DNA of 64,000 bases from Gibbula magus (Eukaryota; Mollusca; Gastropoda; Trochida; Trochidae): NCBI GenBank assembly GCA_936450465.1, contig OW388293.1:31935860-31999859 (forward strand). Direction: 5' to 3'. The notes beneath the pieces are model-generated. The model searched no databases, was not told where the DNA came from, and worked only from the letters and a program-made list of their open reading frames with translations. A program made the position numbers and the translations under genes. Below are positions 19,471-61,535 of the stretch, one piece after another. Within the stretch, counting starts at the first letter, position 1. The number at the start of each line of letters is the position of its first letter.

Positions 19471-19477
19471 ACCTGTC

Positions 19478-19567
19478 CCAACCTGGTAATATATATGCGC
19501 CCAACCTGGTAATATATATGCGTCCAACCTGGTAATATATATGCGTCCAACCTGGTAATATATATCT
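19478..19567. repeat. Four 23 bp units just upstream of a start codon
   Basis: Units of CCAACCTGGTAATATATATGCGY start at 19478, 19501, 19524 and 19547; the last is cut off after ATATATCT. The array ends about 100 bp before the ATG at 19671, so it lies in the 5' UTR or core promoter, and each unit adds an ATATATAT element. Confidence 0.9.
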
Positions 19568-19670: not shown

Positions 19671-19704
19671 ATGGAGCGACTTGGCTTCACCACTGTGTGC
19701 ATAG
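19671..19704 (+). CDS. Six-cysteine gene exon 1: start and half of signal peptide
   Basis: The ATG opens MERLGFTTVCI and the donor GTAAGC starts at 19705, leaving phase 1. Joined to exon 2 it forms a canonical signal peptide. There is no other reason for an ATG and a strong donor to lie 34 nt apart here. Confidence 0.72.
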
Positions 19705-22700: not shown

Positions 22701-25700
22701 GTAAATCGTACACAATTCTTTCCAAGCGACTTCTTCTTTCAGTACTACTGTGTGCAGGAAGAGGCGAGTGCACGTGTAAGACAGAACTGTGCACACAGAC
22801 CAGTGGCTTAGTGACGTCCGTGCTGTTCGGCAACTTTTCCTCGGACACGTGTGAGTAAGTATAAACTCTAACATTATGTCAATTTCAAAATTTCAGTTTG
22901 AAAGTTTGAGAACATTGAAAATAAAATTAAAAGGAGCCTCTGAAATGTGTTCATTTTCACCTTAAACTGGGCTCCGTAGTTTAATTGTATACTTATTTAG
23001 GCTCTTTAAGAATTAAAGTGTTTGGATGACAGACAAGTAATCATACAATGCTCTTTGATAGATTGTTTCATAGTGTCATGTATTTGCATGTATTTTCCTC
23101 CACTTCAACTGTGAAGGCCCACTTGCAGTTATAACTCAGTATTGTCCTAATACGTATCCTTATATTTCTTATGTATGTATTTTGAATATTCCGTATACAG
23201 CGAACGGGTATTACAGTATATAGCTGTTTCAGGTATAACCCATCTCTTCTGATTACCCTAGAACCACCCTTGCCAAGCACGGACAGACTTGCATGATGTA
23301 TACCATGAACGCACTTTGTTTCAAACAAAGGTTATTTATGGAGAAACTCTACCATAATGCTTATTTTCAATTAGAACTGCTTCGAATCTATGTCTCCACA
23401 TTTCCAAGATGTGACGGTCTATGACTATTTTCGACTATACGACCTATTCAAGGGCATGGTATACGAAATCGTCCTGGCACAATATTGATCATTTGACAAC
23501 TATGTAGTTCTTCAAATACAATTACATGCGGTCTTAAATACGAACTAAACTTGATTGATTGATATTTACTAAAACAATTCTCCTCATGGTCCCTTTTCAA
23601 AAGATCGTATATACCCGATGTTACAGGGACCTGAAGAGCTATGTGCACTGTTTGACCACTGAGCTGGACGGGTGTGTGGGCGAGAGTGGACAGAGGACAG
23701 CCCTCCAGATACTCGCTGAGATGCACTACAACCTGGTGCACAGGCAGTGTGGTGAGGAGAATTGGACAAGTTATACTTTATATACCTAAATGCCCATTTA
23801 ATAGTCTTAGAATTCAGTTGTTTCTCCGGGAGAACTTCCCTACGAAAGGAACTATAGGGCCTTACAATTCCTACTGAGACGGCTGACGCGCCCTCGGGTC
23901 TTCCCTAGGGCCAATGCCTCTCTTTGCTAGAACGGCCTCGCATTCAGGTGATATCCATTACATATATAATGAACATATATATACATCCCCAACTTCCGTA
24001 AACCAAGCAAATCTTCTGTGTGTTATTTCATACCACTCTCTGCTCCTATCCTAAGCGTTCATTTTATGCAAACTTGAGAAATATAGGATAAGAAAAAAAT
24101 ACGGTCGGAACAATGTTGATGGAAACTTCTTTCTTGTGGACGGGAACTGTTTTCTTACTGATAAAAATGTATTATGCATGACAATCTCTTTCTATGATAT
24201 ATATGGCACCTGTGTTATAGTTCTCTACAGTTTGGCAAAGCACCTTTAGTTAAGTTACTTTAGAAGAAGAGAAACATTATCACCCATTTTTTATATTATC
24301 ATTTTGTGTCATGATGTAGGGATTTTGTCTACACCATTTGGATTTGAAGGGTCACCTTCTCTTATAGGTACATCCATTGTGTTGTTGGGGGTCACACATT
24401 CCAAACGTTGTAAATGGTGTTACTTTATAGAGAGGTACCGACTGTTACCGAAAACTACCATTTTGATGATAGTATATTGACGATATGAAGGTAAAAATAG
24501 GACAATGCATCGCGATTGACGCGCGCCAATGGTCAAACGTAATTTTGGAATCGTATTTACAGCAGACAGAGACAAATTTGTGTTGATAATGTTTAATAGG
24601 TCATATAACTACTGTGCATGTAAATTGGACGTGTAGTTTCGGTTTCTACACATGCATAATGATGTTACTCAAATTTAATTGGAAACTAGTAATTATGATA
24701 TATTTGGCGATAGGTGATGAATATGCAAGCTGAGTGAATTTATTTGTACTGTAAACAGCACATATGGTGTGTTGGAATGTATTAAAGCCAAATACAATTT
24801 TATGAAACACAATGGATGTTCCTTTAAAGATCCGTGCAGAAATTGTGTAGAAGTTATGCACTAACACTTGAATATGTTGGTGACCATTGACATTATAAGG
24901 TCATGTCGAGTGATTGTGCTTTATCTGGAGAAAATGTCAGTCTTCAACTTCAAACAATACAACACTGATGAGCTACAGAGCCCATGACAACTTAGATATT
25001 AAGGCTGACAACTTATTATAATGGCAGACATCTTATATATTACTCATACTTGATGCCAACTTACAAAATACTGCTCGAAGAAAGATAAATAATAACACGA
25101 GCATAGCGTATATTGACAAACATGCATTTTCATTTGTTGATATATACTAATATTAATGTTTATAAAATATGATAAAATTGATAGATGTGCATGGTCTCCC
25201 CGACTCTTAAATGAAGATAAAGTTGAGTCTATAACAAGAATAGAAAGAACAATATATCTCAAAATGCAGATAATTCGTAGGCCCAGTTTTAGGTTATTTT
25301 CAAATTGTTTTCTTGAATTGCTGACGTTTCTATTACAGAGCCTAAACATTAGTCTCGCGGGCTCTCTCAGATCAAATAACCTTTCATGTTGTTCTATCAC
25401 CAAATAACCACACATGCTGAAAATACCTGCTATAGTCTCACATGAAACAAAGTTGTACCCTACTGTTCGTTAACTGTCTCAGACAGTGCACTTCAAGCGT
25501 TGAGGGTCCATTATCTTTATTAGATAATAGCTGGTGCTCGAAAATAAACAGGAAACACATTTTTCTTTAGCTTTTCATTTTATTTTTGTATTAAATAAAT
25601 ATAACAAAGCAATGACAAGAAGTACATACTATATCTAAACACTATATAAAAATAAATATCAACAAAATAAAACATTTGAAAGAAGAAAGAAGACTGGATG

Positions 25701-28700
25701 CGTTCACTGCCCGAGGATTAAGAGTGAACATACTTCCAACTAGAAGAGAATAAAGAGAAGGCACAAAGAGAATCATAAGCCACATTAGACTATAAATGTA
25801 TTCGCTTTAAATAACGGTTTCCCGGTGAAGAAATATGCATATTGAAAAATAAAGTTATAATTTTTAGATTTGATATGAGTCTTCAGTGTACTTTTTAAAT
25901 TCTCTTATATACTTCTCCATGCCTTATTCAATATATTACTTTTGACGTGGAAACACACTGAAGATGATTAATACAACGCTCATAATCAGCTCCATAAGAC
26001 AACTAGAAAGCAAGCGGAAAAACATATTTGGAAGAACTAAAACTTGAAATCGGAACAGTTGACAATATACGAATGAACAATCCCTGTTTTATTACTACAA
26101 ATCTAGCAGAGTAAGAACCGTTCATTCCACCATAGTTTATGATGGACCAAGACCCCATCAATACCAGCAGTGAGGAAAGTGTAGCGGGTGACATACACAA
26201 CTTACTTTGTAAAAACGCCGTAAGAAAACATATCAATAAAATGAACTGTATTGAGTAACATCACCTGGTTACGGAGGTCAATCTTCGCCATGATCGCATA
26301 ACCTGTCCAGTCAATGATGCACAGTGTAGCTAATTATAATCTCCTACTGTGTCCATTTATTAACTGTTGTAAACTATGTATCTACTTCAATGGACCGACC
26401 CCAACGTAACATTTTGAGAAAATTAAGATGTGGTACTTTACCCCTAGAAATTGAAGTTGGAAGATTTTCAAAACCTTAAGTGCCACTTAATCAAAGAATT
26501 TGTAAATTTTGTGATTGTAATGATATTGAGGACAAGGTCCATTTTTTGACTAGTTGCAGTTTATATTCCGATATAAGGTACGATTTTTGGAATTATTTGT
26601 CGAGTAGGGACCCTCTTTTTATCAAGCTTTTTCCGGTTGATCAATTTGTATAGTTAATGTTAAACGAGGATGTTGGTGTATCTCTTGCTGCTATATTATA
26701 TAAAATGTTTAAAAAGTAAAATGTAGTTAACATCTGCGCCTGTACCACATCTGCGACCACGACGATAGCAATGTACCTGTTTTTTATCCTACCATATTTT
26801 AAGTTTGATGAATCTGTGTCTAATAAGCCTTCAAGGCTGGATGTTGTTTTTTTTTAAACTGATTTTGTAAATATATAATCTGTTTTAATAACAACATGTG
26901 ACATAAGTAACTTAGATTAGGCTTTAGAAACCATTGTATACTTGAACCCTTAATTATGCAATTCGGCCCTTATATACGGGATACACCAATCCCTTATACG
27001 GGCAGTAGGCAACAATCATCTACAGTCGGCAACACAGACAGTGGAGTCTGCATCAAGCCAGACACATCACCCACGTCTCCAGCTTGAACACCACATGTAC
27101 CTGGTGAAGTTCCAACTAACATACAAGTCCTGTTCTCAAATACAAGCTCAAACTCATCCTGACTTTTGTTCATCTACCATCTGTAAAACAGAGGTACACC
27201 AAAAAGCCGTGTTTTTAAAGGAAGAACATTGCAGTGTGACAGATGGAGGATCGTGATAACCTTCTACACTAAATGCTAAACTAATAACAAGTATCAGCAA
27301 GGATTCGACCAAAGAAAAAGTCCAGGAACTTAGGACAAAGGATGTAAGCTGTGAGGAATCCAAATCGAAGACAATCTGGCAGAAAGAAGACTGGATGTGT
27401 TCCCTGCCCGAGAGTGAAAAGTCTTCCAACCAGCAACACAAGAAATCAGAAGCTATATAAGACGACTACATTGCTTCAGATAGCAATTCCCTGGCGAAAC
27501 CTCAAAACAATAGGCAGAAGTATGCATATTTGAAGATAAAGTCATGATTGTGAGAGTTGGGAGTCTTCAGTGTACCATTTTAAACTTCCTTATACATAAT
27601 TCTCCACATTTTGACACTTCATACTTTTTCAATATACCATATGTATTATATACGAGTTGTTTCTCTCTTGAAGTAAGGTCAAAGATAGAAAATGTACGGT
27701 TATATGTAGAATGCACATAGGGTGCTTTCTTCAAAGAACAAGCAGACAAGAAGCACTTAGACTGGCATATGCAACAAGAAAATCCATTTCAAAGATGTAG
27801 AATAGGAAACTTCAGAAAAGGCTTTCTACCATTCTTGAAGACCAAACATACCACATATCTACCACGAATATGTCAGCTTGGATATGTAACGGGGCAAAAA
27901 CCTGTGTATTTCCTACCCTGGTGATAAAGGAGTGTGACACAGTCTTGTGTGACTTTGTTAAAACCTAGTGACCTATCCTTGGGATAATCCCTAGGCTGAT
28001 TGGTTACTAGTGGTTCCTATGTTGCGAATCGTGATGATTGTGTGGCAACTGCTTCATGGTTGGCTATATAGAGGCCAGACCCAGACTGGAAGGGAAGATT
28101 GACTCGGCCTGGAGAGACATGTGAGCCCACAGGAGCAGAGGGGCCTGGTTAGGTCCCACCGGAGGTCTGCTAGACCCCAGTTGGACATATGACCATGTGA
28201 GACGTCACCATGGATGTCCAGGATGATGTGAATCTAGCGGACTTGATTGTAAATCTATATTGTATATATTGTATCATGAAGTTAGAAGTGAATGTTGACC
28301 ACCAGACGTCACCTTCTTTGTTGGATTGAAGTGTACGCGATAGTGGTACAGGGTATTCAAAACTTCAGAGTTTATTTGGCAGGGAACACATTCAAAATTT
28401 ACACTGACCACAGAGCTCTCCAGTGGCTGAAAAATATAAAAGCTGAAACAGGACGCCTTGGAAGATGGTCAATTCTGCTCCAAGAGTATGATTATGAAAT
28501 TGTTCACAGGCCAGGTAAATCAAATACCAATGCAGGCGCTCTATCACGTACTCGATACCCTGAGCCACCCTGAGCCACGGTCGCCACCACCCATTACAGA
28601 TGACATACCATCTCCTCCTAGTCCACCTCGCAAAACATATGCAGAAGTGGTAACATGAAAACCAAATCTCTCAAGGGTAACACTTCATTCGTCTCAGACA

Positions 28701-31700
28701 CAAGTACACAATCACGTGCTCTCGAAACACCCACTCCATCACCTCCCACAATCTCCTCTGTCAGTATTTCTTCACAACATTCACGTTCACATTCAACAAC
28801 TGAGCAAAGCACAGATTCTGATATCCCTTGTCCACTAGCTGTTGATTTGTTTTATGCACAGGACACGGTACCCTCTGGTCCATCAGTCATGCTTGTTGAA
28901 GCTGACCACAAGGATGATGAGATGGCTGCTCAACAATATAACTCGCCCGACCTCAGACCTCTAATTGACTACATTGTTAAAGGTGAAATCCCTACAAATT
29001 ACAATGAGTCCCAAATAAAAGGTCTTGTGGGTCGTTCTCAAGAGTTTGTTGTTCGAGATGACATCCTCTATCATCTTTACCAGGCAAAACACCGAGGTGC
29101 CAAGGCTACCAGGCCTCCATAAATCACACAATTAGTGGTGCCACTCACAAAGAAAAGTTTTGCTTTTATCTTATCACGACTCCAAAGTCGGCGGTTGCCA
29201 TCTTGGAAGGGATTAAACTTTTCAGGCCCTCCTTTCAAAATATAACTGGCCAGGCATGTACCAAGACATTGACAATTACATCAGGTCATGTGATACTTGT
29301 CAAAAGATCAAGTCAACCACTCATGGTAAGCATGCTCCTATGGTACCAATGCCAATCGAAGATACCTTCTCACGTAACCACATAGACATACTTAGTGCTC
29401 TTCCAGAAACACCAGATGGACATAAGTTTATGTTCTGCTTGTTGTGGATTCGTTTTCACGATGGTGTGAAGGTTTTGCAATGAAAACACAAGATGCAACC
29501 GAAGGGGCGCGAACTCTCTTCAATGAAGTCATCACACGCTTTGGTGCGCCCAAAACACTTCTATCAGACAGAGGTAGACAATTCACTTTCAAGCTAGTTA
29601 ATGCTCTGTGTGAACTACTTGACATCAAACATCATCTCACATCCTCCTATCATCCTCAAACCAATGGTATGTGCGAAAGGTGAAACAGAACTATCGAGCA
29701 AGCCCTCCGTGCATACATTGACTCAGATCATTCAAATTGGGCAGACCCATGTGTGATGATGGCAATGAGAAGTACACCATGTGCTTCCGCTGGGTACACT
29801 CCCTATTACCTTCTCTTTGGTCGAGAAATGCATCTCCCTATTGATACTGCTTTGCTCCCAAAGCCATCGATTGGCAAAACTGCAGAGCAGCATCTTAAGG
29901 TTCTCCGGGACAACCTTAAAATAGCAAAATCAATAGCCAAAGACAATACAACAATATCACAGGATGTCAACAAGAAAGAGCTGATCTCAAAGCTCGAATA
30001 CCAAAATTTTCATTTGAAGACCTTGTCTTACTGAAAAACGAACAAGTCCTAACGGGACACTCACCTAAACTCACAGTCAAGTGGGTAGGTCCTCGCACTA
30101 TTCTTGAAGTAGGTCCAAATCACACATACAAGCTGCAATATGTGAACACAGGGAAAACACACAAAGCATTCACCATGCTAATCGCCTCAAACCCCACATT
30201 GCACGTCCACAGCACAATGATCGCCTCCCAGATCCCGTGCAAAATCTTGGACATCAACGTCCAGATCAAAACACTTCTGCTGACGAAGCAAATGTTGACA
30301 ACCAGGTGGCTCCCTCTCAGACACAGTCATCTGATGAACACAATACGCCACATCAGTCAACACAACAAGACAAATCATCACAGGATGACATCATATATCC
30401 TGTTGAGCACATCCTCAGGTGCAAAATTCAAAAGGGCATTAAATGGTACCAAATCAAATGGAAAGACAATTCTCAAAGAACTTGGGAACCAGCTTCCAAT
30501 ATCGATCCATCCTTGCTGAAACACTTTCACAAGACAAAAACAATGAATGGTCAATCACGCCGTAAAGGACATAAGTACTTCAGTTAAACTGAAATAGGAC
30601 ACATAAACTTCAGACATCCTCTTGAGAGATTGTAAAAGATACCTTGAAGTAATTGACCACCCTCTCTACAGTTATCCTGCTGTGTCCTATAGTGCTAGAT
30701 TGTTAAGATGTTGGTGGCCACAGCATTCTTATCAATCAGGTCATGTCTTCTAATGGTTCTCTTATTTTCTCTCTCTTGGAGTCTAATGGTCCTGGTGCTA
30801 GTCCTCTTGTCGTGCGCAAATCTTGTCAAGTGTAGTGGACCAATACAATGCATTAACTACAGCATCATCTTCAAACCTGCCTCAGAAGTGCACTCGCAAA
30901 GGATAACTAGGTGCACACGTATGAGGTGATGATGCCGCATGTTCCAAACATCCCCACAATGGCTGGATGCCACCAAGGCAATGGAACCTGTGCCTTGCTA
31001 CACCAAATTTAAATGTACCTAAATGTTATCAAAACACAATGCATCCCACATCTCAACGAAACAAGACAACACATAGTACAATTAATTCCAGAATCCAAAA
31101 TCCCTTCATCTCGTACAAAACTTGCTGTTCTTAGTTTTGCAGGTTCTCTTTTTGGCACAGCAACCACCAATGAAGTTAACATTTTAGCAAAACATATTAA
31201 CGCCCTCACAAGACAACATTAGCGTAGCAAACATTACGGAACAACACTCAGCTCATCTGTCATCTTTCATAAAGTTAGTAGACAACCGCTTTAAAAATGC
31301 ACTAAAAGGTGTTAAGGCTAACCATGATGCCATCACTTTTACGGCTTCTGCCATCGAAAACCATGCCAAAAACGTACGCGCTACCCTAGTCTCTCTCACT
31401 TCTCTGCTTATTGACCAGATACACAAAGCGAGCACAGTTGAACATCAACTTGAAGAGCTTAAATTGGGGATTCTCAACTTAGCTAAAAATAAATTATCTC
31501 CCCTTCTCATTGCTCCTGAAATTATTAAGCAAACAATTCATCATATATCTAGGATTATGGCGGATAAATATCAAAATTTTCATCTCCTCCAAACAAAACC
31601 CACTTATTACTATTCTCATGCAAAATTCATCTTTGCTCGCACGAAGTCACATGTGTATATTTCTGTCAAATTTCCTTTATCATCTTTAAGTAAACCCTTC

Positions 31701-34700: not shown

Positions 34701-37700
34701 ATTTCAAGCAAATCGAAGAAAAGGATGTGAAAAAAATGCCTTCAGCAAACTAAGATCGATGTCTAAAATGTGGTTTAGACGACTGAATGACAGGAAACAG
34801 GCTCTTTACAACGCCAATTGTTGTAAGCATTGCAGAATGAAATATGAGCCTTTTGCATGGCCAATATGTCAGACTACAACCCAACACCCATGCAACAGAC
34901 TCATCAAAGCACAGTGCACGTCCATAGACCAGAGAGATCAACACCGAATGGCCGGTATCTTCTCAAACCACAACGGTACGAAACATGTCATGTCGTTTCT
35001 TAGATTTGCTGCGTTGTATTCTGTATCATTTATAAGTTGTATTGTTTCCTGATTATCAATGTACAATATTAATACTCACATACAAGACAAACTTTGTAAT
35101 ACTTGTGCATATGTGAATTTATATAAAATGGGTTGTCACTATAATCAATGTTTAAAAATATACTTTACAAACCATTTACCTCATATCATGTTAATATCAA
35201 AATATGTAAATATGGAACTTGTTCACTATTACCTTATATATGCTTTGTAATTTATAATGTATTTCTGAACGATATCATGTAAACTGCGACATCTACATTA
35301 AAAAGCCTGAACCCAGATCCTCTGTTTTTAAGGTGTATGTCACATTGAGTTGCTCTACTAGAGTAATTCCCCATACTTAAAGGACCTCACCATCATAACC
35401 CTATACGAGTTGTTTATCGTGAACGTCATACAACAGGCGGAAACCACCGACAACAAAACTACTGCATTGCTTCAAATACCAGTGTCCCGACAAAGCCTCG
35501 AAACAAAAAGCAGAAATATGCATATTGGAAGATAAAGTTATGATTTTGAGAGTAGATATGTCTTCAGTGTGTTATTTAAATTCTCTTACATACTTCTCCA
35601 GGTTTATCACTTCATGCCTTTTTCAATATATTACTTTCGACGTAGAAAGACACTGGAGATGGTGAATACAACGCTCATCAGCTCATTAGACAACTAGAAG
35701 CAAGCGAAGAACTAAAACTAATGTCGAGAAGGTCCAAGAACAGTTGACACATATTTCCAATTATATCGTCATGGAAGAGAACACATTTTAAAGACACTGT
35801 GGGCAATCTTAGAGGATCTACACCAAATGAAACATTGAAACAATATGTTGAAAATACGTATGAAAATTACTACTAAGACTAGAAGAATTACGAACCGTTC
35901 ATTCCACCATATAATTTATGATAGACCAAGACACCATCAATGCCAGCAATGAAGACAGGAAGAACATTGCAGTGAGACAGATTGAGGAGGAGTGTGATTA
36001 CCTTCTCCATCAAAACACCAAATATGTGAAGGACTACTCACGCATCGATGATCAAATGCTAAATCTAAAAAATGATACCAGCAAGGATTCGATCAAAGAA
36101 AAACTCCAGGAACTTTGGTTAAGATGTAGACTGTGGGGAATCCAAATCGAAGACAATCAGGCTGGCAGAAGAATGAAAACTGGATGCGCTCTCTGCCCAA
36201 GATAACTAAGCATGAACAGATAGAATAAAGATGAGAAACAATAGTTTTTCATTGCTTCAAACAATAATTATCTGATGAAGTTTTGAAACAAGCAGCAGAA
36301 ATATGCATATTGGAAGATAAATATATGATTGTGTGAGTTTGTATAATTTTTTAAAATTTAAATGTTCTATTATACTCTCCACGTTTGATACTTCACTTCA
36401 TATCATTTCAATATATATATATATCTATGAATATATATGTCTTAATGAGTTGCTTCCCAAGTAAAGTAAGTTATATATAGAAAATGTAAAAGTATTTGTA
36501 GAACGATCGTGTGACTCTTTCCTCAGACAATAAGCTTAGCACGAAGCACTATGACTGGTACCTGCAAAAAGAAAATCCATTTCAAAGATGTGGAATAGGA
36601 AACTGTCCACCACTCTTTGAGGACTAAGCATACATCAGATATATACCATGAATATCTGAGCTTAGAAACACCACATATCCCCCGAAAATTCACAGAGAAG
36701 AATTGGAATGAAGAAGATATGACCCAATTCTCAGTCACACAGATGGAACAGGAGAGTGAGAAACTTCTATATAAACACATAAAATGTTAAGATAGTTTAC
36801 TTGAAAAGGCCAATGTACTGGTGGAAATGAGCTCATCGTATTAAAGAAGATTGATCCAATCATAACCATATGATGTTTACTCTTTTCTATATATGTACAT
36901 GTATATGTAATATGATATATAATCTATGTATATAATATGTAACTTGATAAGCTATTTAATTGTGGGTAACATTAATGACATGATCTGCACAGATCTGATT
37001 ACATCAGTCGGTATATAAGTAACACCAGGAGATCAATACTTAAACATTGCTCCGAATACACATCTCGACCCATTGTTTTCTTTATACTGTATACTTTATG
37101 TCTACGGTTTACCTACATTGTTAATTATAAATACTGTTAGTAAAATTGTGTTTATAACTCTTCCTCGCTTGTAATACTATGTTCTATTTATCATCTTGCT
37201 TTATATTTGTCGTGCATTTAGTCGTTTTAGTGTATACAACTTAGATGTGTCAGATTATTATATTTTGTGCGCTTTGAAAGAAACCGTACACATGTCAGGG
37301 CCTGTTTGATCCTACACATTACAGGAAGGCCCAGCCAGGAAGTGACAGAAACATCTGCCTGAAGCAACAAGGAACACATGGGCCAACTTCATGGTTGCCT
37401 TCCAGGAACAATTTAGGCAGGACCTGCAGACGGACCCGTCAGTGTTAAACATCAAGCAGCAGCCCGGTGGGACCGTGACGACCTACCTCAACAGGGTACA
37501 AGAAGGTTCAACAAGGACATCTCAGAGAAACATCTTGTGGCAATCACCATATACGGACAGTTGCCTGAACTTAATCAATGGATTCAATTGCAACAACCAA
37601 AGACTCTAAGAGGCAGCAACATGTAATGTTTTATGTTATGTTATTGTTTTTCTGTTACAATACGTGTGTAAAATCTTGACTTACTAATGTTAATTGTAAT

Positions 37701-40700
37701 ACAGTATTCCATTTTGTTGTATAGCAATGCCTCAACATTCGCTGCAAATACATTCACATCTCGACCCTCATCTGTGTTCAGGCATTCCTTGGGAATATTC
37801 TCGAGCAAATATGTGTGCGCAACCGTGTGACTGCTAATATACCCGATTAACTGTCTACATAAAACTCCCTCAATCCACGTGACTTCAACGTGATAAAATC
37901 ATCGACGTTGTCGACTGTAAACAGATGACAATGAAAGATGGCTTGAGAACGTCGACCCAGACGCACTGATGTCGACTGGAAGAGCAACCCAAATCAACTA
38001 CCCGGACAAACTACTGTATTCAGTCAAACCCTCACAATAAGAAGATACTGGGATCTTCACACTTCACTCCAACTCCTAACACCAGTCTATCATCACAAAC
38101 ATCAACTGCTTCATCTCCTGAGCAACGCCAACATCTTGACGTCGTAGAGTAGCCCTCTACATCAGGACACCAGCAACAGATACATAAACTTCCCCAACCC
38201 CGATTGTTCAGCCAGTCATGTCGTCTCTTCACCTCCTCAAGTTCAGTGGATCACAAGACGGACCAGCTTGGTGGACATATTTTGAAGCATGGATAAAACT
38301 GTCAAATCATAAAAACGACCATTCTACTTGGAAGGCCAAGCCAAGCAATCACACAGACATCTGCCTGAGGCAACAAGGACCACATGGGCCAACATCAAGG
38401 TTGCTTTCCAGGAACAAATTGGACAGGACATGCAAACATATCTTGTCAGTATCAAACATCAAGCAGTAGTCCAGAGAGACAGTGACGACCTATCCCAAAA
38501 GAGTACAAGAAGGTTCCTACAACAAGACCATCCTTGAGAACCTTCTTGTGGCCATCACCATCAACGGACAGCTGCCTGAATTTAAACAATTGGTTCAATT
38601 ACAACGACCAAGGACTCAGAGAAGTTCAGCAACAGGCTAAGTTAGCTGAATCTTCTCAGCCATCAGCAAACAGTGTAGATGTTGATGTAACATAGGACGT
38701 TATGAATGTAACACTCTTAATGAAACAAATATATAAGTACAAATGCCGTGGTCGCATCCCTTAATTTCAACTTTCATTTAGACTGGTGGCCTTAGTATAA
38801 CACACTTTTCTCAGAAAAATCAACTCAAAAACTCGCCCAGCCCAGACTGTGCTCATTATTTCTACCGCCTCATACCCGTAGTCCCCCCCCCCCCCCCCCC
38901 CATTTATACTAAACTCTACCTGACACTTTGTTTCAACAAAATATCTTACACTACTCCACTCACTACCAACGGCATATATCCCGTTTACCGCCTCATATGC
39001 ACCACCTGCTTCCTCTTATATTATTCTCCTCAAGTCTCATCCTCGTACAGGTACAGGGTGTGGTGGGTACTGCTCAAATCCAAAAGAACTGTCCTCGTAA
39101 CACTCTCTGCACGCACAACAACCTTTTATAAGACTGGATATCCTCACTCCTTATGTGACAGTCTTTCTGGCGCGAGATCTATCACAGTAGAGACTGTCTG
39201 TCTCCAAGATTCCAGAGGCAATTCTCTTATATTGCTTCTACTCATTAACCCAGTGCTGTCTTCAATGTCCCTTCTTCCAAGTAGGAGCCAGTCTACATCC
39301 CATCAGCTTCAACCTTGCTCACTTAAAATACAATATCACTTAAGGTGAATCAGATAACAGAAATCACTGTCAGCATCCCTTATATCCATTCCAATTGAGC
39401 ATTCCATACTTATGTATATCACTTCTAAATGTCCTTCAAAAACATTCCAATTGGTTTTAAAAAGTGGGCATTTCTGATAAAGAATGTCACAACAAAACCT
39501 CCATTAAATGAAATCCTAGGTGTGGGTGATGGTCGTCACCCTGTTTCTTGGCACTGTCACAACTGTTGTTCTTCATGTAGGTTTGCACTGTCATTCGTGG
39601 AGACTAATGTTGGTTTCGCCAGACAAACTCTGAATCAGACGTCCAAGTCAAGCTTTCCATATGTTCAGCACACGAGACTTATTCCTGAGCCCTTTCTGAC
39701 ATGTCCATGCTGCTACAAGGTGCCAAGTGTGTCATACAGAACACAAAAGGTAAAGCATGCATGAGATTTCTAAATCCTTCATAATCCCCTGTCACTCAGT
39801 TGTCAACAAATCGTTGCTTTTCCTTATAAAGTTGCTCTTGATTCTATCATATCTCCAGTTGCGTTTTGAGCTTCAGTTGAATTTCATTCCTAGATGTTGC
39901 TGTACCTACTTCCGATTGGCCGGACTCTTTATCCTTCACTCTTAGTCATTCTGACCTTGAGCGCTGGTCTTAATTTCAAGTTGAGTGCTGCACACATACA
40001 CAAAAGTCAAAGTTTGCACAAGACTGGCCATAGTTCTTTCATTTGAATCCTTTTCATGAACATCATATTGAAGCTGAAGATGTTTCTCCCATCAGACGAA
40101 CCTTCTATCTTCAATCAGAGGTTAAGCAAGAACGTGCTTCACAAGTTCAGAACATGTTATAGATGCAGACATGACTGAGTCTAGTTCATCAGAAAGGCTA
40201 TCCCAAGGTTTTGAAGATGGCTGATGGTACTTATCGTTTTGGAGTAGAAGACAGGAGGTTAAATACTTTTACAAAGCCGCTATGTTTTCCTCCTCCTCAA
40301 TGTCCACCTTTCATCCAGTTGGTTGTCGTTTTTCCGCCGACGTTGACGTGGTTTATGGAGTTTTATGATGACAGCCATTTGGGGAAATCGGTAGTCACAC
40401 GGTCGAGGGGTTGTCTAAGGGATATACCCAATGGAACTCTGAAACAGATGGAGAACGATATTTATATGTATATGTATATGTATATGTATTCGTTGCAATG
40501 TTAATCTGAAGTTATACAACATTAGCTCAAATAATATTACAATTAACAATAGTAAGGCTCGCTTATACAGGAGTATTGTAACAAAAATAATATGAAGATA
40601 ATTTCATAATCTTACATTACTAAACTGTTGAATAAAATTAACTCAGATTTACTCGGTAATATACAGTAATGCATGGATTTAATATATGTAATTGGTATGC

Positions 40701-43700
40701 AGTAATGTATATAAGTTATACAGAGCAGAATGTTCATATCTTAGAAAGAGTAAATCTATGCAACTAAAACGAAACACACATATTTTAACGGTAATTAATA
40801 AAAAGCCTACAACCACATGAATGTGAATAACTGAATAAATTCCGAGATTATTTGAGTTCAATATGTTTATTAAACACTTCTTATATAAGCCAATGCCGTA
40901 AGTAGTGACCGTATATTTGCTCAGGATCACCTTTATTTCTTTATTTCAGTACTGAAAAGGTCACAGGCCTATAGTACATTTACAGTTCATATGAGTAATA
41001 AGTCATAAGTTCTTATCTATTACAATCTGTTTTCTCGAATCCATTGCGAAATATATGTACATTGCAAGATTCTGTAGTGATAATGTGTATCTGTTAACAG
41101 TGATATTAATTTTCTTTCGCTTGGGTATTTATAAAAGTATGGTTTTAGGTACTTAGTTCGTAAAGTGTTATACACAGGGTAGACGAGAAGAAAATGTAAT
41201 TCATTCTCTATAGAATTATGGTCACATAATTTACATATTCTCTGTTCTCTTTGTATACCTAGTTATTTGCCAGTTTCAATAAATAATGCATGGGAAGAGC
41301 AACGAGATCGAATGAGATATACGAAACTTTTTCACGTCAACGTCAACTTTTGCTAGATACTCTTCGAAACATATACCCGATTTCCATTCCTTGTAAAATG
41401 ACTTTAGTTGATAGGAGTAGAGATTCCGACCATGATTAAGACAAGTTTATTGAAATTGAGTTTGAAAGTTCATACTGCTTTAACGAGTCGCTTTTGTTAA
41501 AAAGTCCGCCAGTAAAATGTTATCACTTCACTTGAAAGAATGACACTAATCACATTACAGCCAGAAATATTGACTTTCATTTTCCACTATAATGGAACTT
41601 GGATTTTGTCACCAAAATATCAAATTATCGTAAGAGCCCTATATGCAAAAGAGTGACCTTTCGTTTCAACGCTGCTACACGATTTTTCTACCTAGAATCA
41701 CTGTTTTCCTGACAATTGTCTTCAGTCAAAATGGAAACGATTTCACTGTTAAAAAAATCGGATGTTAGTTAATTTCCAAGTGTATAGATAAAAATGAGGA
41801 TAAATAGAAAAAAATGTTTTGCAAATCAAGCGAGGTAGAGTTGTTATACACATTTCTAACAAACCCTCGCCGCTAATGGGTGCGATACTGCCGAAGCGGC
41901 GTTAAACAATAACTCACTCACAAACTGTATTTACAATCAATAATGTAGGTAAGTATTATATAGTATATAAAGTTGCTTGGCTTACCTCAGCTCAGATGAA
42001 GGTCGAGATGTATATATGGTTCCGTATGTATTGGTAGTAAATGTTGAAAGCACCGAGTTCGCGATGTGGGTTACTTATATAGGCCTACTACATAATGGTA
42101 ATCGGAGCTGTATCCATGCAATTAATGTTTCTGAATTATGTAATACAGTAGCATTTGACAGTGGCCGTAAGCGCATTAATTGCTGAGTTTACCGAATGTT
42201 ACCTAATGATATCAAATCCTTATGCTTGGAGTGCCCATTGCCTGGGGCAGTTAACAAACAGTGGGGTACTTTGTTTCATCATGCGTGAGTACTTGGAAAA
42301 TAAAATTACAATATGGCAAGTTATTTTGATCTATCACTGCTGTACTGAATGTTCGCTGCTGTTTATACTCCGAATACTGCTTATACAACATGGAAGTTTT
42401 TGTTTATAAAGTTATTTAATCAAGATTGACCTCTATAATTTATAAAGAGTTTCGTTTTTCTCAACAACCGCTTTTGTTATTTTACCCTGTAAGAATATAA
42501 CCATAGTTTAACCTTATTATAACCATACGATATTTTCAGACCCGTATAATTGCTAGTGTCCTCCTTCCTCCAAGGATTTTGTGAGATACGAATACATTTT
42601 ATGGATTGAAATCTTTGTTTCAGACTACTACGGTTCTAACGGTATCTGTGATATGGCCGACTGCACGTTTGTCGCAGACATCTCCGAGGGGTACACCTCC
42701 AGCATATGCGAGTACGTGGTCGGGTTCGAATCCCCTTTATACGTTTAATTGTAATATCATTATCTAGTTCAATTATTATCAGAAAAAAAACCCATTAATA
42801 ATAAGCCTTAATATTTTGGAACATTTGTGATACGATGACTATGATTGTTCCTCTGTATTTTATTCACTTTGACTCTGGACTATTACTTACGATATAGAAG
42901 TCTTCCATAACTCACACGGTTGTCTTATACTTGAACAGCTTCTTAAAGGGACACTGCGTCGAGGATAAAAATGAGATCACTTTTATCTGCTTATGCTGGT
43001 TAACTTGTCTGCTAACGAGTTACGCTTCGCTTCACTGTCTACATGCAGTATAGTTTTATTACCAATTTCTTCAATTGTCTGAAATTGGGGGTCTGTGACT
43101 CGTTATCAGACACGTTAATCAGCATAGGTAGATACATCTTATTTCATAGTTATCCTCGACGCGGTGTCCCTTTAAAGGCACTGTAGCACGTTTTTTCGCT
43201 CAAATAAGTTGATGAAATGTATTTGAAAAATATTTTCACCAATGGTAAAACATCCTTCTCTCTTCGGAAAATAAAGTTTAAAATGAGTGTACATGTTTCG
43301 GTAAAGCCATGGGAAACGTTTTTGTAATATAAAATAATAAATTGTGTTCACAATAAAATGGCCGCCATGCAATTTTTGCTTTATACGCTTTTTACCGCTA
43401 CAAATAATTGGTTTGTGTAATAAGATGTTTTACCCTCTTAAGTTAGTTTAAATGACATAAACTATCATTATAAATGGGAAAAAATAAATTTTGCAAAAAA
43501 CGTGCTACTGCCCCTTTAATGTCTCTCTGGTATATTAGTACATACATTTCTAATACATTTAATCACCATTACTAATATAGGTTGTGCTGAGTACATCAAA
43601 ATTATTAATAATTAACCACATGGACATATCATGGTCACTGGTCAACGTGTTCAAATTGTGCCAAGTGAAAGCTTTGTATGTTTAGACAATCGTTACGCTA

Positions 43701-46208
43701 AGATTCTACAACAACAACCCAATAATACATGTATACTCCGAGTGTATATAGATACACATCTATAGGCGACGTTGTGACGTTCAGAACATGAAAACAGTAT
43801 TACTCAAAGATCTTCTTAATGTTATTGATCAATTTAACCTATATTTTAGTACACATATATTACATACATAGGTATAGCCATTCAAATATGCATCATTTTC
43901 AGTAATTAGTCCATGCATTTAATCGTATATTTACCTCATAAGAGGTACATGGCCGTGCATGAATCACTAGCACTTAGGTTGGTTTGAGAAGTTAGCAACC
44001 CAATAATACATGTATACTCCGAGTGTATATAGATACACATCTATAGGCGACGTTGTGACGTTCAGAACATGAAAACAGTATTACTCAAAGATCTTCTTAA
44101 TGTTATTGATCAATTTAACCTATATTTTAGTACACATATATTACATACATAGGTATAGCCATTCAAATATGCATCATTTTCAGTAATTAGTCCATGCATT
44201 TAATCGTATATTTACCTCATAAGAGGTACATGGCCGTGCATGAATCACTAGCACTTAGGTTGGTTTGAGAAGTTAGCAAAATAGTCCCTGTTACAGTTCT
44301 TTATTGAAACTTAAACCGTTTAGGTTATTTATTGACAAATCATGTTATGCCAATCTAATAAATGTATAACATAATATAGAGATATCGATCTAAATTTATT
44401 TATATTCAATGCTATTCCAATATTATATAATAATATGGTATATTTTGAAGAATGTGTCAGTGACTACATTAATCAAGATATATACGAGACATTTCTACTT
44501 TTCATCTGTGTACTACCAGCCGACTGAGGATTTTCATCGCCTGTTTGAAGATAGAGCTGAGTGAGTGTGGTACTGGCTCCATATTTGGAAGTATTGTACA
44601 GTCGGAAGTCGACGGCAAGGAACTTATTGAAGAACAGTTCTGTTGTGAGTTGTTATGTTATTCCAAACTCAAAATTACCATAGGTATCCGAGTCATTAAT
44701 TTAAAAAAATACAATTTATTAATTTAAAAAAATACAATTTATTGAAATTAAATGTTATTAAAGTTTACTTTGCTTCTTAATAAGTTGATAACACAATGAA
44801 GAACAGTTCTGTGGTCAGTTGTCACATTATTCCAAGCTTATAATTACCATACCACATGCGTTGGTGTCGTTAATAAACAAAAAACATTGTTTATTAAAAT
44901 TATTTTTAATGTTTATACTTTGCTTCTCACTGATAAGTTGATAATACAGTTTTGTATATGAGCTCTCACTCACTGAACATGCTTTTCTGATCCATTATCA
45001 TAAAAAGTATTTCAGTAAGGAATTCAAAACATTTCTAGCACACGATAACGCGAAGGCTTGTGGGCGAGACAATTAAATTGATGAAAACAATTACATGTAA
45101 GTAGTAAGTAATGCAATGGTCATGGGTAGGCCCGCAGGATGCAGAATAAATTATCAATATACATAGATATGCTATTTCTCTGTAACAATCTGTCTTTAAT
45201 TTTTGACATGCGAACACAAGAATGTTAGTCCTTCCGTCCATCCGTACGTCCGTAATCATTTCTCGAAAACGGTTCATGATATCTTGTTGAAACTTTCCAT
45301 GTGTATTACCCACCAACTGAAGTGGTACCTTTCGATATTTAGAATTTTTATTTGTTTTCCTTTTCATAAAAACGTGTTTTATTTGAACTTTGTTCAGAGA
45401 TAAACTCCAAAACCCTTTATCATACTTGAAACTGAAATATGTATTACCCCCTAACTGAAGTAGTAGATATACAGTTATCTGTCAAAGATGTGTTTTACAA
45501 GTTATGTGGGACCGGTGGGATATGTCATCTTCTGATGACTCTTGTTTTCATCTGTGTGTATCGAGTGTAATTGTCTTTGTTAATCTATTCTGGGGGTAAA
45601 TTACTAGTATTCATTTCACCTGGGACGCTCACTTCCGTTTTTGCTTGTTCCTTCGGGGTCTCATTTCAGAATACTTTTATTACCCATATAATTGAAAATA
45701 ACCTAGTTAATATTATTGATATGAGCACATGTGCACATATCACGTTTACCTAGCAACCATTGTTTCACCGCGACTTTCCGTATTTCGTCGTTTGTGACGT
45801 CATAAAACGATTGTTCGTAACGTCACTGTAGGTTGCCGCCGCAAGAGAAGTGGGCCGTTTCCTGGCTAGTTTTACGCGAAGCAAATGGACTAGGATGGGT
45901 AATAAATAAATTACACTCGAAAGTGTGCCATATGACTTTTACGAAACTCTTGCAATTTATGTATAACCCTCGCTCTCGCTCGGGCAATACAAAAATTCAC
46001 ACTCGTTTCGTAAAAGTCATATGACACACTTCCTCGGGTAATAATCTCTATATATACAATATTTACAAGTGACACGCTGTTTTTCACGATAATGATCAAT
46101 TACTAATGATCTTAACCTGTATCATGTTTTGTTTCAGCGTCCGCAAGACCTGGAGCGTTGTTACCTGTGCTGATTGCCTGTGTGATAGTGTACAGTTTCT
46201 CATCTTGA
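19671..46208 (+). CDS. Predicted GPI-anchored protein with two six-cysteine modules
   Basis: Six exons join without a phase error: 19671-19704, 22743-22854, 23627-23751, 42624-42711, 44520-44644 and 46138-46208, giving 184 residues. Residues 1-19 form a signal peptide, created only by the first splice. Residues 23-90 and 99-161 are two copies of one module with cysteines spaced C-x4-C-x14/19-C-x8-C-x7-C-x24-C (Cys 23, 28, 48, 57, 65, 90 and 99, 104, 119, 128, 136, 161). The end, residues 168-184, is hydrophobic and uncharged after a small-residue patch SSARPG, as in GPI signals. Each module is an exon pair with identical phases, and the second exons are both 125 nt. I recognise no named family; it recalls small helical cysteine-rich secreted domains of invertebrates. 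The role is unknown, probably at the cell surface. Confidence 0.8.
19705..20944. other. Intron 1, non-coding
   Basis: Nothing recognised beyond AT-rich sequence; the open frames at 19887-20153, 20352-20579 and 20617-20802 have no known domain or splice partners. Confidence 0.45.
20945..21795. repeat. (ATCATAGTATACC)n array in intron 1
   Basis: About 850 bp of 10-13 bp units: ATCATAGTATACC, ATCATATTATACC and ATCATAGATT, in higher-order blocks of roughly 60-70 bp that recur, for example around 21190, 21300, 21560 and 21670. It begins with TATATCGTCATAG units near 20950. AT-rich and self-complementary (GTATAC). Confidence 0.93.
22175..22660 (-). mobile_element. LINE 3' end (family 1)
   Basis: On the minus strand it encodes the typical C-terminal zinc-ribbon-like tail of a non-LTR reverse transcriptase: DLYLVNLSESKPCICGALVE followed by DVYHFF. 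A frame break follows, then an AT-rich 3' UTR that ends in AATAAAATATG. The same sequence occurs in the opposite direction at about 48110-48466. It is strongly 5' truncated. Confidence 0.8.
22743..22854 (+). CDS. Six-cysteine gene exon 2: module 1, first half
   Basis: Acceptor TTCTTCTTTCAG ends at 22742 and donor GTAAGT begins at 22855. It encodes the rest of the signal peptide, then ECTCKTELC and, after a 19-residue spacer, the third cysteine (SSDTC). It leaves in phase 2. A LINE 3' end stops about 100 bp upstream. Confidence 0.82.
23627..23751 (+). CDS. Six-cysteine gene exon 3: module 1, second half
   Basis: Acceptor CCCGATGTTACAG ends at 23626 and donor GTGAGG begins at 23752. It is 125 nt long and enters with one base of a GAG codon. 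It encodes DLKSYVHCLTTELDGC, an amphipathic stretch ALQILAEMHYNLV, and the last cysteine in RQC. It leaves in phase 1. Confidence 0.85.
25549..26260 (+). repeat. Unrecognised repeat family, copy A
   Basis: Landmarks in order: ACTGGATGCGTTCACTGCCC (25693), GTCTTCAGTGTACTTTTTAAATTC (about 25872), TTTTGACGTGGAAA, CACTGAAGATGATTAATACAAC (25957), and CCGTTCATTCCACCATA with GATGGACCAAGACCCCATCAA (about 26118). The same landmarks occur in copies B, C and D. The family has protein-coding remnants with stops. I cannot place it in a named class. Confidence 0.65.
26395..26885 (+). mobile_element. LINE 3' end (family 2)
   Basis: The plus strand reads KLRCGTLPLEIEVGRF, then after one stop LNQRICKFCDCNDIEDKVHF, the Cys-Cys-His motif found at the C-terminus of CR1/Jockey-like non-LTR reverse transcriptases. 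It continues SCSLYSDIRY to a stop, followed by a 3' UTR. 5' truncated and broken. Confidence 0.82.
27020..27884 (+). repeat. Unrecognised repeat family, copy B
   Basis: Shares with copy D the phrases ATCAGCAAGGATTCGACCAA (about 27293), GGAATCCAAATCGAAGACAAT (27354), ACTGGATGTGTTCCCTGCCC, GTCTTCAGTGTACC, and at the end GAAAATCCATTTCAAAGATG. Fragments encode AGRKKTGCVPCPR-like and ENPFQRC-like peptides in several frames. Not autonomous. Confidence 0.65.
27885..28290 (+). mobile_element. LTR-like segment
   Basis: It begins TGTAACGGGGC, has a TATA-like GCTATATAGAGGCC at about 28063, and runs up to the point where the gypsy RNase H frame opens. The layout suggests a solo or truncated LTR next to a 5'-deleted element. 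A matching partner LTR was not found by eye. Confidence 0.4.
28292..28573 (+). pseudogene. Gypsy RNase H fragment
   Basis: Contains YTDHRALQWL, the core of Ty3/gypsy RNase H, and VHRPGKSNTNAGALSR near the end, which corresponds to the conserved H-x-PGK-N-x-x-DALSR ending. The N-terminal half is missing. The final aspartate of the DALSR motif is changed to glycine. Confidence 0.9.
28655..29765 (+). pseudogene. Gypsy integrase, zinc finger and DDE core, broken
   Basis: An open frame at 28655-29122 is a serine-rich linker and the N-terminal approach to integrase (FVVRDDILYHLY). The zinc-finger cysteines lie in SCDTCQKIK at about 29290. The core holds the first acidic residue (RNHIDIL, about 29379), the second (LLSDRGRQF, about 29565) and the third in NGMCER (about 29675), immediately followed by a stop. 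There are frameshifts around 29120-29260 and 29440. The catalytic residues are visible but on separate frames. Confidence 0.88.
29753..30587 (+). pseudogene. Gypsy integrase C-terminus and chromodomain
   Basis: The frame 29753-30034 carries the end of the integrase core (GYTPYYLLFGREMHLP). After frameshifts, 30237-30587 encodes a chromodomain: VEHILRCKIQKGIKWYQIKW then the WEPASNID motif at about 30385-30525. Chromodomains on integrases target chromatin marks such as methylated H3. It ends with a stop at 30587, about 120 bp before the next frame. Confidence 0.85.
32320..32605 (+). mobile_element. LTR-like insertion inside the envelope remnant
   Basis: Envelope-like coding on both sides is separated here by non-coding DNA resembling an LTR: TGATATTGTTGTTAGATAC at the left and a polyadenylation-type TCATTAAAAGCCGGTCATC with a GTGCTGCAGTGCTACACGACA right end. 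No second copy was found by eye, so it is a candidate solo LTR. Confidence 0.4.
32880..33545. repeat. Three-unit repeat insertion inside the envelope remnant
   Basis: Units of about 150-180 bp start near 32975, 33140 and 33310. Each carries AATAGCCAAAGTAGC, CACTAGGTCTAAG, CCAAGTTTGGTGA, GGTTTTTGAGATATGGCC and TTCCATGGAAACCAG. It closes with AGAATGACGGAATGACGGC. This is the same class of dispersed repeat as the TCCGTCC blocks, common in mollusc genomes. Confidence 0.75.
34250..34995 (+). repeat. Unrecognised repeat family, copy C
   Basis: Contains TTTCGACGTGGAAAGACACTG (34447), GATGATTAATACAACGGTCA and CAACTAGAAGCAAGCGGAC, then AAACAATATGTTGAGAATAC (34668). It is preceded by a segment (GACCAATACTTCAAAATT, AATACACATCTTACA) that recurs at 37040-37070 as ATCAATACTTAAACATT and AATACACATCTCGACC. 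The 125-residue frame at 34675-35052 is lysine/cysteine-rich but matches nothing I know. Confidence 0.6.
34996..35479. other. Non-coding DNA between repeat copies C and D
   Basis: AT-rich, with no landmark of the A-D family until about 35480. No gene signal. Confidence 0.4.
35480..36770 (+). repeat. Unrecognised repeat family, copy D (longest)
   Basis: The most complete copy. It holds the 3'-type block twice (GCATATTGGAAGATAAA at 35521 and 36308) and the CACTGGAGATGGTGAATACAAC block, then a 95-residue frame (35918-36205) rich in charged residues, QIEEECDYLL, ending KTGCALCPR. A second coding trace with ENPFQRCGIG lies at about 36570. The doubled block could be paired ends of one element or two nested copies. 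Confidence 0.6.
37260..38700 (+). mobile_element. Two gypsy gag remnants
   Basis: The second (38218-38690) begins LHLLKFSGSQDGPAWWTYFE, the usual start of a gypsy-type gag (F-G-x-WW-FE). It continues with frameshifted TWANIKVAFQEQIGQDMQTY. The first (37320-37610) is a diverged copy of the same region: FMVAFQEQFRQDLQTDPSV. Between them (37620-38200) is non-coding sequence that may be LTR and leader. Both are broken. Confidence 0.7.
38701..40049 (+). pseudogene. Degenerate retroelement-like coding DNA, unclassified
   Basis: A poly-C run (38885-38901) is followed by a leader-like hydrophobic frame (38928-39131: LLPLILFSSSLILVQVQG) and a 111-residue cysteine-containing frame (39429-39764: HCHNCCSSCR, LTCPCCYK). 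They lie between a gypsy gag and a gypsy reverse transcriptase trace, so they may be an envelope or gag relic from another element. I cannot name them. Confidence 0.35.
40050..40345 (+). pseudogene. Gypsy reverse transcriptase fragment
   Basis: After a stop-ridden NPFHEHHIEAEDVSPIRR stretch the frame reads MADGTYRFGVEDRRLNTFT. This is the KKDGTYRFCVDYRRLN box of Ty3/gypsy reverse transcriptases, about two-thirds identical. It ends abruptly near 40345. The catalytic YxDD part is missing. Confidence 0.75.
40930..41300 (-). mobile_element. LINE 3' end (family 3)
   Basis: The minus strand encodes QRICKLCDHNSIENELHFLL, the same Cys-Cys-His ending as family 2 but divergent, then VYNTLRTKYLKPYFYKYPSE. 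The 3' end, toward 40935, has ACTGAAATAAAGAAATAAAGG, a short A-rich tail. 5' truncated. Confidence 0.8.
41866..41932 (-). repeat. Short GCGGCGTTAAAC repeat
   Basis: Reverse complement of the segment at 47339-47405: GAGTGAGTTATTGTTTAACG, CCGCTTCGGCAGTATCGC and CATTAGCGGCGAG. It shares the GCGGCGTTAAAC core with the SINE tails in this window. Confidence 0.8.
42624..42711 (+). CDS. Six-cysteine gene exon 4: module 2, first half
   Basis: Acceptor CTTTGTTTCAG ends at 42623 and donor GTACGT begins at 42712. It encodes YYGSNGICDMADC and the third cysteine in TSSIC. It leaves in phase 2, exactly like exon 2. Reading through the donor gives a stop after VVGFESPLYV. Confidence 0.83.
42943..43175. mobile_element. 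MITE with TTAA ends, first of an adjacent pair
   Basis: Inverted ends TTAAAGGGACACTGCGTCGA (42943) and TCGACGCGGTGTCCCTTTAA (ending 43175) with one mismatch, about 230 bp. The TTAA at each end suggests a piggyBac-type target. It lies in intron 4 of the six-cysteine gene. Confidence 0.8.
43172..43519. mobile_element. MITE with TTAA ends, second of the pair
   Basis: Inverted ends AGGCACTGTAGCACGTTTTTT and AAAAAACGTGCTACTGCCCCT between TTAA at 43172-43175 and TTAA at 43516-43519, about 340 bp. It shares its left TTAA with the right end of the neighbouring MITE. No coding capacity. Confidence 0.8.
43715..44279. repeat. Exact 281 bp tandem duplication
   Basis: The block starting CAACCCAATAATACATGTAT at 43715 restarts at 43996. 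I saw no difference between the two copies up to GAAGTTAGCAA. It lies in intron 4. Very recent, or an assembly duplication. Confidence 0.93.
44520..44644 (+). CDS. Six-cysteine gene exon 5: module 2, second half
   Basis: Acceptor CATCTGTGTACTACCAG ends at 44519 and donor GTGAGT begins at 44645. Its length of 125 nt and its phases are the same as exon 3. It encodes RLRIFIACLKIELSEC, aligning with DLKSYVHCLTTELDGC of exon 3, and ends in EEQFC. The last 14 nt and the donor are part of a 169 bp duplication. Confidence 0.83.
44631..44960. repeat. 169 bp diverged duplication covering an exon edge
   Basis: AGAACAGTTCTGT at 44631 recurs at 44800, followed in both by AGTTGT, ATTATTCCAA and later TTTGCTTCT-TAAGTTGATAA-ACA. 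Copy 1 holds the end of exon 5 and its donor (GTGAGT); copy 2 has GGTCAG there instead. A 27 bp unit TTAATTTAAAAAAATACAATT is also doubled inside copy 1. Confidence 0.82.
45180..45520. repeat. TCCGTCC dispersed repeat, degraded
   Basis: Carries CCTTCCGTCCATCCGTACGTCC and twice a GTGTATTACCC-CCAACTGAAGTGGTA phrase (45299 and 45436). Similar in style to 1400-2215. Lies in intron 5. Confidence 0.7.
45918..46031. repeat. Hairpin repeat in intron 5
   Basis: Arms GTGTGCCATATGACTTTTACG and CGTAAAAGTCATATGACACAC, about 28 bp each, with a (CTCG)n loop, 100 bp upstream of exon 6. Probably a small MITE; no clear target duplication. Confidence 0.75.
46138..46208 (+). CDS. Six-cysteine gene exon 6: hydrophobic C-terminus
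   Basis: Acceptor TTTTGTTTCAG ends at 46137. In the phase set by exon 5 it reads SSARPGALLPVLIACVIVY and then SFSS before TGA at 46206. Small residues followed by an uncharged hydrophobic end fit a GPI-attachment signal; a short membrane anchor is the alternative. The other two frames give shorter, ordinary-looking peptides. Confidence 0.78.
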
Positions 46209-47014
46209 TGTGAACAGCAGGTACCAGAGATATACAGGACACTGTAACTGGTTTCCTTCGCAACAGTTCAGATAAATCTACCTATATTGTCTATGGGACA
46301 AGCCGTTCATTCCATTCGGCCAACAGACATTTTTAATTGAATTTGATTGATATTACTCTGATACCACCATATCTGATATTGTCTTGCACAAGGAGATTTG
46401 AACTTCTTTCACTGAGTTTATACGGCGATATATTGATGTTCAACAAAGAAAAAAAAATTCATAATGAACATCTGCATGAAAAATAGTTTATCTATTCTAT
46501 AATGCAAATACGAATTAAGCTTCTTTCTCCGATTGAAGGCACGTTAATGCCATATATTGTAGAGACCGACGTGACGATCATCGCAATTTTATGCATAAAT
46601 TACATGACTATAACGATATATTCGTTGGCGAAAGTGCTATATATGCTTTTAAAGCCTATATTGAAGGTACATAGCTTTTCATTCTTTCTAATGCAAACTT
46701 GCAAATCACCTCAAACCTTTGGAAATTACTTGCATTTGCACCACAAATCTATCTTGCTATCACTGTACTTGTCTGTCTTTTCTTTTGTAAAATCCTTGTA
46801 CGTATATGCGTCATGAGCATACTTCTAAAGTGGATATGTGAACTATATAAATATGCACTATTATTATTATTATTATTATATGATGTCACACGTGTCTTAA
46901 ATCATGATCATATGTAAACACTGTTTCACTAAGCAGGATAACGTGTGCCCGATCCATTCTTTTGAATTAGTATGTTTAAATTAAACAAATCACAAAGTTT
47001 ATGTTCACAATAAA
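46209..47014 (+). other. Probable 3' UTR of the six-cysteine gene
   Basis: AATAAA at 47009-47014 is the first good poly(A) signal seen after the stop. A (TTA)n run lies near 46859. The open frames here (46502-46917) are AT-driven. Confidence 0.4.
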
Positions 47015-61520: not shown

Positions 61521-61535
61521 AGGGCATAGGTGATA

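Follow-up and report, generated by a model that had tools for sequence, protein, structure and literature searches.

A two-module six-cysteine protein of the top shell Gibbula magus, probably membrane-anchored, with a cysteine spacing close to that of RGM_N

RGM_N (PF06535) is the BMP-binding three-helix N-terminal domain of RGMA, RGMB, RGMC/hemojuvelin, and DRAG-1. The RGM N-domains are described as three-helix bundles with three disulfides, they sit in GPI-anchored host proteins, and they bind BMP2 and GDF5 (PMC7354924). The contacts with BMP are placed in the linker between helices alpha2 and alpha3, where a Leu enters a hydrophobic pocket, the RGD/RGN loop contributes a Gly, and a His stacks; in RGMB, the pocket-filling residue is Leu103 and the stacking residue is His106 (PMC7354924). 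The N-terminal domain of TWSG1 is likewise a small three-helix, cysteine-rich extracellular domain that binds BMPs, and its authors report no structural homologue of it in the PDB (PMC11167000). It differs from the modules described here in holding seven disulfides within about 50 residues (PMC11167000), and no sequence match to it appeared for our protein. In the openly licensed PMC literature, we found no paper on RGM_N in molluscs, no paper with RGM terms among the matches listed for RGM domains in gastropods, and no title that describes a six-cysteine GPI-anchored mollusc protein like ours; the accession PF06535 occurred in no paper found there, and by title only PMC7354924 was relevant to it.

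Gibbula magus has a true RGM gene of its own (C1:80224864-80225064, RGM_N 52.8 bits, RGM_C 92.6 bits), which is the only one of nine genome matches to score above the RGM_N cut-off. The RGM_N domain of this gene and the start of RGM_C share one open frame, and its cysteine spacing is C-x4-C-x20-C-x8-C-x7-C-x21-C. We compared both the snail's own RGM and the wider RGM family with a second gene, located on chromosome 5 (C5), that encodes two copies of a six-cysteine module.

Gene model and duplicated modules

The gene was analyzed within a window of 64,000 nucleotides at C5:31935860-31999859, the whole stretch of DNA under study. The earlier note had proposed six exons joined in phase by five introns to encode 184 residues, and we could reproduce the coordinates, the GT..AG ends, and the join from the window sequence, which yields 184 amino acids and a stop codon. 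The features of the locus are as follows, in window positions:

19477..19565, + strand: 23-bp tandem repeat with TATATA boxes, some 110-180 bp 5' of the ATG; possible promoter element, a putative function
19671..19704, + strand: coding part of exon 1, with the ATG and the start of the putative signal peptide; donor GTAAGC, phase 1
22743..22854, + strand: exon 2; remainder of the putative signal peptide, then the first half of module 1 (C21, C23, C28, C48; sequon N42-F-S)
23627..23751, + strand: exon 3, 125 nt; rest of module 1 (C57, C65, C90); two-helix hairpin predicted
23752..42623, + strand: intron 3, 18,872 nt, between the modules; dispersed repeats and a retroelement-like stretch that bears env
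42624..42711, + strand: exon 4; linker, then the first half of module 2 (C99, C104, C119)
44520..44644, + strand: exon 5, 125 nt; rest of module 2 (C128, C136, C161); helices predicted at low confidence
46138..46208, + strand: exon 6; stretch of small residues, hydrophobic GPI-like tail, stop codon TGA
47009..47014, + strand: AATAAA, the first after the stop codon (about 0.8 kb); possible polyadenylation signal

The introns measure 3038, 772, 18872, 1808, and 1493 nt, with phases 1-2-1-2-1, and the GC content of the exons (45-58%) is higher than that of the introns (31-38%). A TAG stands in frame four codons 5' of the ATG, and the joined exons contain 12 and 9 stops in the two alternative frames.

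The protein begins with MERLGFTTVCIVLLCAGRG, which resembles a signal peptide as judged by eye and by hydropathy. At the other end, residues 168-182 form a hydrophobic tail (mean KD 2.55) that has SSA shortly upstream and runs almost to the stop; this arrangement of small residues followed by a 15-residue hydrophobic stretch at the C-terminus fits a predicted GPI signal. The cysteines lie at positions 23-28-48-57-65-90 in module 1 and 99-104-119-128-136-161 in module 2. These positions yield exactly the spacing that had been claimed, C-x4-C-x(19/14)-C-x8-C-x7-C-x24-C, with a second gap of 19 residues in module 1 and 14 in module 2. An extra cysteine (C21) just before module 1 brings residues 21-161 to an odd number of cysteines (13), which the earlier note leaves unmentioned and which counts against the RGM_N-like reading given below; cleavage of the signal after C21 would take this residue off. 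The 184 residues hold one N-glycosylation sequon (N42). Overall, the spliced mollusc protein looks real and is probably secreted and membrane-anchored.

Each module corresponds to an exon pair that lies between phase-1 introns; inside the pair, a phase-2 intron closely follows the third cysteine. The second exons of both pairs have the same length (125 nt). In a hand-made, cysteine-anchored alignment, 14 out of 63 aligned residues are identical between the modules, six of them cysteines. We scanned both strands of the window for the pattern of the second exon without stops (AG-N-7 codons-C-x7-C-x24-C-N-GT) and found it in two places only, at 23625 and 44518. Sequences simulated with a first-order Markov model contained one match in 38.4 Mb, or about 0.003 per 128 kb, a figure that bears on the duplication rather than on the discovery of the exons, since the pattern was fitted to exons 3 and 5. 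A fair reading of this count is that the second copy is not a chance copy of the first, and on the evidence of sequence the modules are a tandem duplication. The earlier note took it as a strong argument for the gene model that the signal peptide comes into being only through splicing; we regard this as fair support, and the in-phase duplication of the exon pairs as the stronger evidence.

To place the protein among known sequences, we searched for homologues and paralogues. Word-based protein searches returned no homologue at E ≤ 10, neither for the whole protein (77 candidates) nor for residues 41-140 (5 candidates). The coverage of molluscs in the protein database is not zero, since RGMs of Bulinus, Lottia, Lymnaea, and Elysia were among the matches listed; diverged vetigastropod homologues would be missed, as these searches need shared exact words. 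When the protein and each module were used as queries against the snail's own genome, with scores computed for the best candidates of a loose first pass, we recovered the gene's own exons and other matches at chance level (best 0.71). Within 100 kb on either side, neither the pattern nor a profile of the two modules detected further module exons (best other E 0.31), and the other matches to the pattern in the flanks were unlike the modules or lay in a repeat array near 32.05 Mb. The locus is very probably a genuine gene of Gibbula magus, apparently present in a single copy.

Resemblance of the modules to RGM_N

None of the libraries searched has a name for the protein: no Pfam family scored above its cut-off and no NCBIfam family was found, in agreement with the earlier description of it as undescribed. 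The further claim that this spacing is found in no named domain did not stand, because the gaps of RGM_N match three of the five gaps of the modules exactly (x4, x8, and x7) and overlap the variable second one. To define the spacing of RGM_N, we used a set of 120 out of 167 RGM-family proteins scoring E ≤ 1 and a pattern in which x4, x8, and x7 were fixed and the other gaps were free. The 62 proteins that fitted this pattern have the spacing C-x4-C-x(17-32)-C-x8-C-x7-C-x21-C, with x21 as the last gap in 62 out of 62. The second gap of module 1 (19) falls inside this range, whereas that of module 2 (14) is shorter, and the last gap is 24 in both modules instead of 21. Six of the remaining 58 proteins were inspected and proved to be truncated or to have longer gaps; the RGM spacing is thus not absolute either. 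This close match with a named domain reduces the novelty of the modules.

Beyond the spacing, the modules and RGM_N have in common the motif C..L..[YF]..C between the third and fourth cysteines, and the part of module 1 encoded by exon 3 is predicted to form a helix-loop-helix, in the place of helices 2 and 3 of RGM_N. RGM host proteins are GPI-anchored, and the two-module protein has a GPI-like tail. Unlike RGM, it contains two copies of the module and lacks RGM_C, for which the Pfam scan gave no match, as the protein ends after module 2 and the tail. The phase-2 intron inside each module is another difference; the snail's own RGM_N does not have it.

Family profiles matched the protein below their thresholds. 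For the whole protein, Pfam returned DUF1397 (E 0.22) and RGM_N (E 0.51). For module 1 alone, RGM_N was the sole match (11.5 bits, E 0.38), well under the curated cut-off of 24.2 bits and the 56.1 bits that the snail's own RGM_N reached in the same scan, and module 2 alone had no match in Pfam. DUF1397 (PF07165) is a 207-position family, that of the insect 27 kDa haemolymph glycoprotein; it matched residues 42-70 weakly in two stretches (11.3 bits against a cut-off of 25.7). The snail's own RGM_N also matched DUF1397 in the Pfam scan (E 0.0099), and these weak cross-matches suggest that the two families may share a cysteine pattern or a fold.

We then compared the modules with sequences in the PDB. 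A profile of the two modules, built from a MAFFT alignment in which the last cysteine is out of register, matched four sequences at E ≤ 10, all of them RGMB (E 0.21-1.1). The whole 184-residue protein and module 2 alone had no match in the PDB, and module 1 alone matched an odorant-binding protein first (E 1) and RGMB second (E 2.5). In hhalign, the modules aligned with the snail's own RGM_N at P 0.0013 (probability 18.6%) and with an alignment of 63 RGM_N sequences at P 0.0008 (probability 24.3%).

We also scored shuffled modules with an RGM_N profile. When all residues were shuffled, the score of the real module was reached by 0 out of 2000 shuffles of module 1 and 6 out of 2000 of module 2; with the cysteines held in place, these numbers rose to 24 and 52 out of 2000. 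In Pfam, 5 out of 10 cysteine-fixed shuffles of module 1 drew some family: one drew RGM_N at 12.9 bits, more than the real module, one drew DUF1397, and another drew the unrelated TSP1_CCN with an E of 0.00043, stronger than any real match. As shuffles of module 1 draw RGM_N and DUF1397, the spacing itself points to named families. None of the 10 cysteine-fixed shuffles of module 2 matched anything in Pfam. When an RGM_N profile was run over a six-frame translation of 264 kb, exon 3, which is handicapped by lacking the third cysteine, ranked tenth. The top match (16.4 bits, E 0.0031, against 13.1 bits for module 1) lies near C5:31882031 on the minus strand, 54 kb upstream of the window, and contains C-x8-C-x7-C and no sixth cysteine. 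By eye, the DNA of this match looks like a tRNA-derived SINE, and it had no Pfam match; we attribute it to chance, and that such a stretch outscores module 1 is a warning about RGM_N scores of this size. Taken together, these comparisons tie the modules to RGM_N chiefly through the spacing, with a slight surplus at the level of residues. We did not adopt RGM membership as a settled claim, since shuffles can match equally well (1 out of 10 for module 1), and we treat the resemblance as a lead; the score under the cut-off, the longer last gap, the missing BMP-contact Leu, and introns unlike those of the snail's own RGM also stand against membership.

Structure models were made for single exons (3 and 5). 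The model of exon 3, with exon 5 aligned, has helices at 2-16 and 25-40 and a mean pLDDT of 76.6 (63 to 77 across five models), whereas exon 5 alone gave a poor model (pLDDT 50.6). The exon 3 model, of moderate confidence, supports a helix-loop-helix like that of helices 2 and 3 in RGM_N, but such a hairpin is not specific; Foldseek found three matches to it in the PDB, all with E > 7 and none of them an RGM.

Possible function and alternative readings

Our best reading, to which we assign a probability of about 0.45, is that the gene encodes a GPI-anchored surface binder composed of two RGM_N-like bundles. The protein would be GPI-anchored (or tail-anchored) at the cell surface, and we infer signal cleavage, GPI attachment, and three disulfides per module. 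Its ectodomain would consist of two tandem, disulfide-locked helical modules with an RGM_N-like architecture. We propose that it may serve as a binder or co-receptor on the cell surface and keep a protein ligand, soluble or apposed, at the membrane; because it has no cytoplasmic part, it would bind at the outer face of the membrane without signalling of its own. If the modules are of the RGM_N type, the BMP-binding bundle of RGMs exists outside full RGMs and in tandem, which would bear on the origin of the RGM co-receptors. If they are not, top shells have a small, undescribed cysteine-rich surface module. A more far-reaching version, which we consider speculative and rather doubtful, is that the protein represents a vetigastropod receptor family of stand-alone, tandem RGM_N-like, GPI-anchored proteins, in which the BMP-binding bundle of RGM was freed from its RGM_C/Neogenin partner domain, was doubled in the form of a symmetrical 1-1 exon-shuffling module, and now binds on the cell surface either a growth factor or some other extracellular partner.

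A serious alternative, which we rate somewhat short of an even chance, is that the gene is real and its module is an independent six-cysteine helical fold, with a spacing that converged on that of RGM_N because short disulfide-linked helix hairpins favour it. This would account for the absence of a significant score anywhere, for the cysteine-fixed shuffles that match RGM_N and DUF1397 as well, for the SINE-like stretch that exceeds module 1, for the weak match of DUF1397 to the protein, and for introns and a C5-C6 length that are unlike those of RGM; it fits less well with a similarity outside the cysteines that is somewhat above that of most shuffles and with RGMB as the sole PDB match of the two-module profile. 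The probabilities given for the RGM_N-like binder, the independent fold, and the binding of BMP overlap and need not sum to one.

By analogy with RGM, the first candidate ligand of an RGM_N-like binder would be BMP/TGF-beta, although the main contact residues of RGM are not kept. Specifically, one could picture a membrane-tethered co-receptor or decoy whose two bundles hold the growth-factor dimer at its wrist site. The RGM_N-like spacing, the predicted hairpin, and the GPI-like tail are in line with this, as are the binding of BMPs by RGMs through RGM_N (PMC7354924) and the binding of the small helical, cysteine-rich N-terminal domain of TWSG1, also at the wrist site (PMC11167000). However, the linker that starts at the fifth cysteine reads CVGES in the first module and CGTGS in the second, as opposed to C-R-G-[DN]-L in the RGM sequences of the PDB: only module 1 keeps the contact Gly, the position of the Leu is a Ser in both modules, and the position of the His is not a His in either. 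The snail's own RGM has C-N-G-D-I, with Ile at the position of the contact Leu, so this Leu is not invariant and some change is tolerated, and the three extra residues between the fifth and sixth cysteines of the modules could shift the contact positions or rebuild the loop. On balance, we think it unlikely that the protein binds BMP in this way.

We find it similarly improbable that the gene encodes a rapidly evolving protein for adhesion or gamete recognition in a broadcast-spawning vetigastropod. Gibbula magus is a trochid vetigastropod described as having external fertilisation (PMC10394393), which would suit such a role, as would the lack of homologues in the word-based searches and of paralogues in its own genome, but the gap in homologues may only reflect sparse vetigastropod proteins and a word-based search. 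Finally, that open segments were chained by chance and do not form a gene is very improbable, because the exon pairs are duplicated in phase, the exons contrast with the introns in GC and are bounded by GT-AG splice sites, and the signal-like start and hydrophobic tail sit at the proper ends of the protein, even though no transcript or homologue of the gene was seen and its 18.9-kb intron 3 holds repeats and retroelement remains.

Other features of the window

Within intron 3, positions 28622-32231 (+ strand) form a retroelement-like stretch with an env-like frame at 31188-32231 (Baculo_F PF12259, E 6.8e-9). The frames upstream of it appear integrase-like by eye; one of them had no Pfam match and one had a sub-threshold match to SH3_Tf2-1 (E 0.0092). 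The presence of this stretch helps to explain the length of the intron. Elsewhere in the window, positions 7150-7587 (+ strand) contain a PDZ-domain exon of another gene (E 4.3e-10), and positions 54416-55927 (- strand) contain a 504-residue open frame with a signal-like start that encodes a carboxylesterase (COesterase, E 6.3e-124, profile positions 2-472 of 515). No Rfam family matched the window. A 21-bp tandem repeat of 54 copies occupies positions 61532-62670 and includes a repetitive 403-residue frame on the minus strand that is probably no gene. In addition, a 281-bp unit occurs twice at positions 43715-44279 in intron 4 with 100% matches, which points to either a duplication of very recent date or an artefact of the assembly.
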